A DNA stretch of 64,000 bases from the NCBI GenBank assembly GCA_023957835.1, contig JAMLGP010000001.1, forward strand, positions 985,575 through 1,049,574, given 5' to 3'. Source of the DNA: Homoserinimonas sp. Its GTDB lineage: Bacteria; Actinomycetota; Actinomycetes; Actinomycetales; Microbacteriaceae. Both the position numbers and the translations under genes were made by a program. Below the pieces are notes generated by a model. The model was not told the DNA's origin. It saw nothing but the letters and a program-made list of their open reading frames with translations, and did not search any database. Shown piece by piece: positions 32,513 through 32,774 of the stretch (the first letter of the stretch is position 1; each line of letters begins with the position of its first letter).

Positions 32513-32554
32513 TCTCGGTCTCTCTCTAGTCTGCGTGTCGGCCAACGACGAACT

Positions 32555-32591
32555 CCGCGACGAGAGAGGCCCGGTTTAGGTCTCGTCGCGG
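32555..32591 (-). promoter_or_regulatory. leuA leader hairpin (candidate attenuator)
   Basis: Perfect 11-base arms ccgcgacgaga and tctcgtcgcgg (minus-strand reading) around a 15-base loop, placed between a short leader ORF and leuA. The 3' arm and loop contain ctctctcg, which could alternatively pair with the gagagag of the leuA ribosome-binding site at about 32520-32526. The hairpin has no T-run, so a translational rather than termination switch is more likely. Inference from sequence only. Confidence 0.5.
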
Positions 32592-32604
32592 CAACTAAGG
32601 AGAA

Positions 32605-32646
32605 TCAGGCCCGAGAGCACGGAGTAAGAATAACACGGTGTTGCAT
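32605..32646 (-). CDS. putative leuA leader peptide (13 aa)
   Basis: Short ORF MQHRVILTPCSRA ending 14 bases before the leader hairpin and about 90 bases before leuA. It carries consecutive Val-Ile-Leu codons (GTT ATT CTT), suggestive of sensing branched-chain aminoacyl-tRNA. ATG follows gcggaataacc, a weak ribosome-binding site, and a TACTAT -10 candidate lies at 32668-32673. Leader-peptide control of leuA has been proposed for other Actinobacteria; whether this ORF is translated is unknown. Confidence 0.4.
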   Translation of the reverse strand: MQHRVILTPCSRA

Positions 32647-32774
32647 GGTTATTCCGCGCGGTAGGCCATAGTATCTGTGCAACAGGATCAGTGAGTCACT
32701 GAACGGTGAGACACCCCTGGTAGTCCCTGAAAAAACAGACCGGGTGAATAGCTTCACCAACACAGGAGGATCAG

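Follow-up and report, generated by a model that had tools for sequence, protein, structure and literature searches.

What controls leuA at this locus, and which open reading frame, if any, is read by a ribosome upstream of it? The window, by which we mean the whole stretch of 64,000 nucleotides analysed here, carries leuA on the minus strand (Table 1). Its product scores 853.8 bits against NCBIfam TIGR00970 (cut-off 697.4), and the start codon ATG 32512 agrees with the starts of relatives. A gap of 262 bp (32513-32774) is common to leuA and a divergent ORF on the plus strand (32775-34319), a trypsin-type protease judging by the appearance of its sequence. The leuA leader and both promoters are presumably packed into this same gap. 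The initial annotation had proposed that a leader peptide controls leuA by way of alternative base pairings that involve the leuA ribosome-binding site. This proposal was right in kind and is the likeliest reading. An element of this sort, LEU, was described before actinobacterial leuA by Seliverstov, Putzer, Gelfand and Lyubetsky in 2005 (PMC1262725), and the stretch in the window is an ordinary member of it. The present work corrects the leader and promoter in the window; the interesting part is a wider switch of leader codons.

Table 1. Positions of leuA and of the features of its leader in the window.
Feature	Position	Strand	Basis
leuA, 2-isopropylmalate synthase, 586 aa, regulated gene	30752..32512	-	NCBIfam TIGR00970 and start position in relatives
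Purine-rich leuA ribosome-binding region AGAGAGAGACC, candidate P3 partner of the leucine codons	32517..32527	-	base-paired to the leader in the predicted minimum-energy structure
P2 3′ strand GGCC, downstream of P1	32540..32543	-	4 bp in the window; class-wide coevolution
P1 3′ arm TCTCGTCGCGG	32555..32565	-	covariation over 99 sequences
P2 5′ strand GGCC, within the P1 loop and 3′ of the leader stop codon	32568..32571	-	4 bp in the window; class-wide coevolution
Leader ORF GTG...TAA, VLSGLILLSCRDET, GTG read as Met, probably leaderless	32576..32620	-	frame and SCRDE end as in relatives
P1 5′ arm CCGCGACGAGA	32581..32591	-	covariation over 99 sequences
Regulatory codons CTG ATT CTC CTT (Leu-Ile-Leu-Leu)	32597..32608	-	aligned with LLL(L) of relatives
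Extended -10 TG-T-TATTCT (TGTTATTCT), 6 nt ahead of the leader start codon	32627..32635	-	sequence and comparison

The leader peptide and its promoter

The conserved leader frame of the window reads GTG CTC TCG GGC CTG ATT CTC CTT AGT TGC CGC GAC GAG ACC TAA, that is 14 codons and a stop. It gives V-L-S-G-L-I-L-L-S-C-R-D-E-T-stop, to be compared with (V/M)-x-F-G-L-L-L-L-S-C-R-D-E-(S/T)-stop, which is typical of relatives. The Leu-Ile-Leu-Leu codons almost touch an 11-bp hairpin (P1), and the leader stop codon falls in the loop of this hairpin, as was found in 98 of the 99 aligned elements, the remaining one being cut off. An in-frame start codon with TAnnnT placed 4 to 8 nt upstream was present in 69 of these 99 elements; the other two frames gave 5 and 0. 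Since the extended -10 lies only 6 nt before GTG 32620, the leader is probably leaderless, with a transcript starting at or next to this codon. Ile interrupts the leucine run in the window, and the congeners examined carry LLLL or LLL. The earlier objection that the leader lacks a run of Leu codons falls, because the true leader carries Leu-Ile-Leu-Leu just ahead of the hairpin.

That objection had been raised against another peptide. The initial annotation had taken as leader a 13-codon ORF, ATG CAA CAC CGT GTT ATT CTT ... TGA (MQHRVILTPCSRA; 32646-32605, minus strand), and as its -10 the hexamer TACTAT (32673-32668, minus strand). Both exist at these places. However, no ATG or GTG ORF of 8 to 25 codons was found in this frame in any of the five congeners examined; such an ORF occurred in 7 of the 99 aligned elements, and GTTATTCTT was seen upstream of the leader in a single one, the window's own. 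The leader that is conserved, (M)LSGLILLSCRDET, lies further downstream and in a different frame. The 13-codon ORF is, on this comparative evidence, a chance occurrence. We rejected it together with TACTAT, which is probably not a promoter: the two are not conserved and sit on or upstream of the conserved extended -10, so that transcription probably misses most of the ORF. Alignment of the upstream regions thus upheld the hairpin of the original proposal, which is conserved with compensatory change, and not its coding part.

Conservation of the element and of its helices

BLASTN of the 181-base stretch gave matches in 260 of the 299 genomes of the family. Among the matches listed, many span positions 70-144 of the query (window 32611-32537), and the 20 that were fetched all lie upstream of leuA or leuC. 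A Microbacterium record that bears the label plasmid also has this stretch immediately before leuA. The recurrence in the family indicates that the stretch in the window is not due to chance. A covariance model (R1) was built from 44 family elements; the first list minus nine duplicates held 50, and of these L005, L017, L018, L023, L030 and L044 were left out by choice. R1 matched 349 of 394 class genomes at E ≤ 0.001 and 80 of 80 named leuA loci, these being the best 80 of 585 confirmed in a LeuA search of GTDB species genomes. Weak model hits that had no leu gene downstream (L281, L287, L296, L298, L299) were dropped, and five loci (L125, L158, L160, L162, L164) were left out of one comparison set, a contig end being among the reasons. 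Three of the loci found by R1 (L112, L116, L148) carry the leader MRFGLLLLSCRGEGL, which is exactly LeuL1 of S. lividans; the identity with the LEU element therefore goes beyond mere resemblance. Finally, 20 of the 39 family genomes missed by BLASTN were tested with R1. The model places an element directly upstream of a near-full-length leuA match in 13, and the other seven are without the element: in six no leuA match reached E ≤ 1e-50, and the seventh has a partial one (residues 210-580). The LEU element and leuA travel together.

Two side observations concern Microbacteriaceae genomes. The element L126 (G243:C1:1156268-1158148) precedes leuA in a genome that, by R1, holds three elements. 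Three small genomes of a single genus (G017, G098, G159) contain a LeuA match with one in-frame stop inside.

The perfect 11-bp hairpin already recognized in the initial annotation, whose loop has 15 nt, was found again in relatives. Covariation was modelled for 10 of its 11 pairs. In the 99 class elements, 99.5% of the cells pair and 5 of the 10 pairs show a two-sided change; 54 two-sided changes were counted against 15.5 in shuffles, a number that none of 500 shuffles reached (the alignment was fitted to P1). The 18 elements located before leuB, aligned with MAFFT, gave 13 two-sided changes against 4.6, again with 0 of 500 shuffles reaching the observed number. Two weaker measures on the same 18 elements, the number of pairs with a two-sided change and that of further pair types, were reached by 21 and 150 of 500 shuffles, respectively. 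Within Microbacteriaceae alone P1 covariation was uninformative, with 8 of 10 pairs invariant and scores matched by shuffles.

The loop of P1 is complementary to a sequence further downstream, and this second helix (P2) coevolves across the class. In non-redundant elements, cognate P2 strands pair better than all 2000 partner swaps (z 6.8, n=69; z 7.3, n=70 in a first run), and better than the partners taken from the five nearest relatives (48 up, 21 down, p 1e-4). Among the 18 leuB elements, too, none of 2000 permutations paired as well as the cognate strands. Examples of such pairs are GATCGGCC/GGCCGATC, GGTCGG/CCGACC and GCTGGC/GCCAGC. Partner swaps restricted to Microbacteriaceae were significant neither for P2 (162 of 2000) nor for a third candidate helix, P3 (85 of 2000), and the pseudoknot thus rests on the wider class. 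Both helices are found in the window, P1 with its 11 bp and a weak P2 of 4 bp.

P3 would join the leucine codons to the leuA ribosome-binding region and is part of the lowest-energy fold predicted for the leader in the window. Its cognate pairing reached z 4.3 against random swaps, and control pairings gave z 1.9 and 1.8 (2.4 and 2.5 in an earlier run). Compared with near relatives, p was 0.099 (earlier run 0.14), and exchanging partners between leuA and leuC in five genomes with both copies revealed no preference. On account of these three results we treat P3 as a predicted pairing. For leuB leaders the P3-type test was negative, with the observed value reached in 301 of 2000 permutations. 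Folding of the 181-nt stretch as a whole was little better than that of shuffled sequences (z -1.26; 26 of 200 shuffles did as well or better); the evidence for the element is conservation, rather than folding energy.

Copies before leuC and leuB and the switch of leader codons

The genome of the window has a second element (L040, G000:C1:1365367-1365447), located directly before leuC and carrying the leader MFASGLLLRRRDGV. A leuB-type model (R2) gave two matches in this genome, as many as were already known, the leuA site being among the matches listed. Ten two-copy genomes of the family were fetched, and all 10 have one element before leuA and one before leuC; further leuC copies were seen. 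Outside Microbacteriaceae, leuA or leuB follows the second copies that were identified. The elements before leuB are 18 in number (L113/L259, L114/L256, L121/L258, L260, L262, L264, L266, L268, L270, L271, L277, L278, L280, L282, L283, L284, L285 and L294); 10 belong to family f34, 4 to f27, 2 to f4, 1 to f15 and 1 to f16, and they are hence not 18 independent cases. ilvE follows leuB within the searched stretch in 16 of the 18, and LeuB and IlvE of one genome (G608) were confirmed. A separate locus, L257 (G500:C7), has the leader MQWSVRILSCRDEAR near an N run and an apparent leuB start on the opposite strand, possibly through a scaffolding fault.

The codons ahead of the hairpin differ between these copies. 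In leuB leaders the last five encode VFVLI, QVVIL, SVRIL and similar runs. LLL makes up the last three codons of 110 of 114 leuA/leuC leaders, as against 0 of 18 leuB leaders. Conversely, Val or Ile occurs at these three positions in 18 of 18 leuB leaders and in 2 of 114 leuA/leuC leaders, one of these two exceptions being the Ile of the window. Two loci, L124 (contig end) and L137 (N run nearby), were left out of this count. A count of Val at any of the five positions (18 of 18 against 8 of 114) overstates the contrast. The change to Val/Ile/Leu was present in all 13 genomes with both copies paired, and it was found against the bias of the model, since R1 had been trained on leucine leaders. 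A later sample gave the same picture: its leuA leaders, 25 in number, and its single leuC leader all end in LLL, and three leuB leaders (two of them already counted) in VIL, while Val further upstream was seen in 7 of the 25 leuA leaders and in the leuC leader.

Codon choice is also uneven. The final leucine codon is CTT in 108 of the 114 leuA/leuC leaders, and CTT represents 6.5% of the Leu codons in leuA genes. GTA accounts for 18 of the 29 Val codons of leuB leaders versus 4.1% in leuA genes, the latter largely from other genomes. There is an alternative reason for the CTT preference, namely pairing with AAGG.

Since the codons switch to Val/Ile/Leu at the leuB copies, the comparison argues that codon identity, and hence aminoacyl-tRNA supply, is what the element senses. 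The difference between leuA/leuC and leuB, observed inside the same genomes, is comparative evidence for a leader-reading ribosome as the sensor. It appears probable to us, at a moderate level of confidence, that LEU elements form a codon-programmable family in which a leaderless leader is joined to a pseudoknot. Leader codons would specify Leu at leuA and, in Microbacteriaceae, at leuC, and Val/Ile/Leu at leuB in at least five families, with the rare CTT or GTA at the sensing position; they would set the amino acids sensed, and the switch would act at a distance in the case of leuB. If this is true, changing the codons before an unchanged pseudoknot changes the amino acids sensed.

Proposed control of leuA and relation to known systems

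How could a ribosome on the leader act on leuA? The model that we favour, and that we hold to be reasonably likely, has the leader ribosome as leucine sensor, with stalling that leaves the leuA ribosome-binding site free and control exerted at translation. Transcription would start at or next to GTG 32620, and ribosomes would translate the 14-codon leaderless leader. The P1 loop, holding the leader stop codon, would pair further downstream as the P2 pseudoknot. With ample charged tRNA-Leu, the ribosome would complete the leader and depart, P1 and P2 would re-form, and the vacated leucine codons would pair with the leuA ribosome-binding region, so that little LeuA would be made. Under leucine shortage the ribosome would halt at the leucine codons, short of P1, which could still form downstream; the stalled ribosome would block pairing of these codons and leuA would be translated.

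Folding with ViennaRNA, a model outside which the pseudoknot lies, was performed on 93 elements (6 of the 99 were left out: L124, L138 and four whose start had not been located). The ribosome-binding site had a predicted unpaired fraction of 0.23 in the free RNA; a ribosome placed on the first Leu codon raised it to 0.40, and one at the stop codon gave 0.26. Access was higher with the ribosome on the first Leu codon in 71 of 93 elements. The corresponding values for TAGAGA of the window (32528-32523) were 0.15, 0.55 and 0.34; a ribosome at the stop thus leaves the site half open (0.34 versus 0.55). With a longer ribosome footprint the effect was smaller (0.35 when stalled, 0.23 when free; the shorter footprint gave 0.41 and 0.40 when stalled), and in some relatives this is probably because the longer footprint opens P1 and frees the 3′ side for the ribosome-binding site. 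Swapped tails produced a gain of access of 0.147-0.163, compared with 0.170 for the cognate tails. As they gain almost equally, the effect is generic and not finely coevolved. The predicted sign fits feedback, in that starvation would open leuA.

The initial annotation had assigned the alternative pairing to the hairpin itself. CTCTCTC, at the loop and 3′ arm, is indeed complementary to the leuA ribosome-binding region, and such a pairing is possible by sequence. In at least one relative (L012), a long ribosome footprint reduces predicted access to the ribosome-binding site, the wrong sign for feedback; this was not so in the window. Pairing of the leucine codons with that region has, on average, the sign expected.

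The same leader and the same sensing could also have a transcriptional output, the speed of leader translation deciding whether Rho, or pausing at the pseudoknot, stops transcription before leuA. The leuB elements point this way, as they retain leader, P1 and P2 and yet sit 171-1600 nt from leuB. This is too distant for simple blocking of a ribosome-binding site, so the output step proposed for leuA cannot hold there. The output at leuB must differ, Rho being a candidate, and a crude scan of the 18 leuB gaps, 17 of which showed no intrinsic terminator-like site, is compatible with it. At leuA and leuC, however, the spacing between P1 and the start codon varies little (44-64 nt from the 10th to the 90th percentile, range 42-158, 94 elements; 42 nt in the window), as expected if the ribosome-binding site belongs to the switch, and no U-run follows P1 in the window. 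For leuA we consider this transcriptional variant possible, though doubtful. A classical transcription attenuator fits in part: the window's leader does have codons of the regulated amino acid, a trait of such systems, but no intrinsic terminator-like site occurs on the minus strand between leader and leuA, and AGTTCGTC follows P1.

A further reading dispenses with leader translation as a regulatory event and has a regulatory protein bind the pseudoknot. It was proposed by Seliverstov et al. (PMC1262725), who, in their account of the element, thought classical attenuation unlikely and left the mechanism open. That account cites mutations of the S. coelicolor leuA leader reported as inconsistent with classical attenuation, and the compact, strongly conserved pseudoknot would suit a protein. 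The leader frame, the position of its stop and the leucine codons are nevertheless all conserved. Moreover, within the same genomes, the codons change to Val/Ile/Leu at the leuB operon, which in most cases includes ilvE and acts in the supply of all three amino acids, and a protein reading the shape of the RNA would not need such a switch. We therefore regard the protein as unlikely to be the sensor; in the literature searched, nothing later than 2005 was found that settles the mechanism.

A small-molecule riboswitch or a T-box would agree with a structured leader before a biosynthetic gene and is very improbable, given that the conserved part is a coding frame and that the window stretch had no Rfam 15 match up to E 1. 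Seven other loci searched in Rfam 15 up to E 0.5 gave nothing but one hit in L258, far below the gathering score and outside the element, and a covariance-model description is now provided for an element without an Rfam 15 match in the loci tested. The mechanism first suggested for this locus, in which a ribosome on MQHRVILTPCSRA of a TACTAT transcript decides whether P1 forms or its 3′ side pairs with the leuA ribosome-binding site, has every piece present in the DNA and deserves almost no credence, as its ORF is missing from the five congeners examined and overlaps the conserved promoter, and the conserved leader uses another frame.

The leader in the window can be compared with several known systems. 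The leu leaders of Corynebacterium (C. diphtheriae, MNRANLLLLRRGGSQA, PMC5784534; C. glutamicum, PMC4046766) are likewise short leucine-rich ORFs before leuA; where these papers present them, they are described as attenuator peptides, with no mention of a pseudoknot. The ilvB-II uORF motif of Corynebacterium ilvBNC, as outlined in PMC10272879, offers a likeness in that Val/Ile/Leu leader codons control a branched-chain amino acid operon. That motif has an intrinsic terminator stem, whereas none was found between the window's leader and leuA. The leuA leader peptide LeuL1 of S. lividans is described as leaderless (PMC8079986), and its sequence, MRFGLLLLSCRGEGL, differs from the window's peptide, which starts with GTG. 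The closest counterpart is the LEU element as set out in PMC1262725: like the stretch in the window, it lies before leuA and combines a leader ORF with leucine codons, a hairpin and a pseudoknot. The possible base stem given there, between the leucine codons and the leuA Shine-Dalgarno box, corresponds to a predicted fold in the window. The window differs from that description by the Ile inside the leucine run. Our search of the literature found no report of leuC or leuB copies; most subscription literature lay outside it, so that their absence is not proven. PMC1262725 names, in its description, leuA and one transposase gene, while here copies precede leuC in the same genome and leuB in other families, so that a single regulatory element now covers leuA, leuC and leuB in a class with producers of antibiotics and amino acids among its members.
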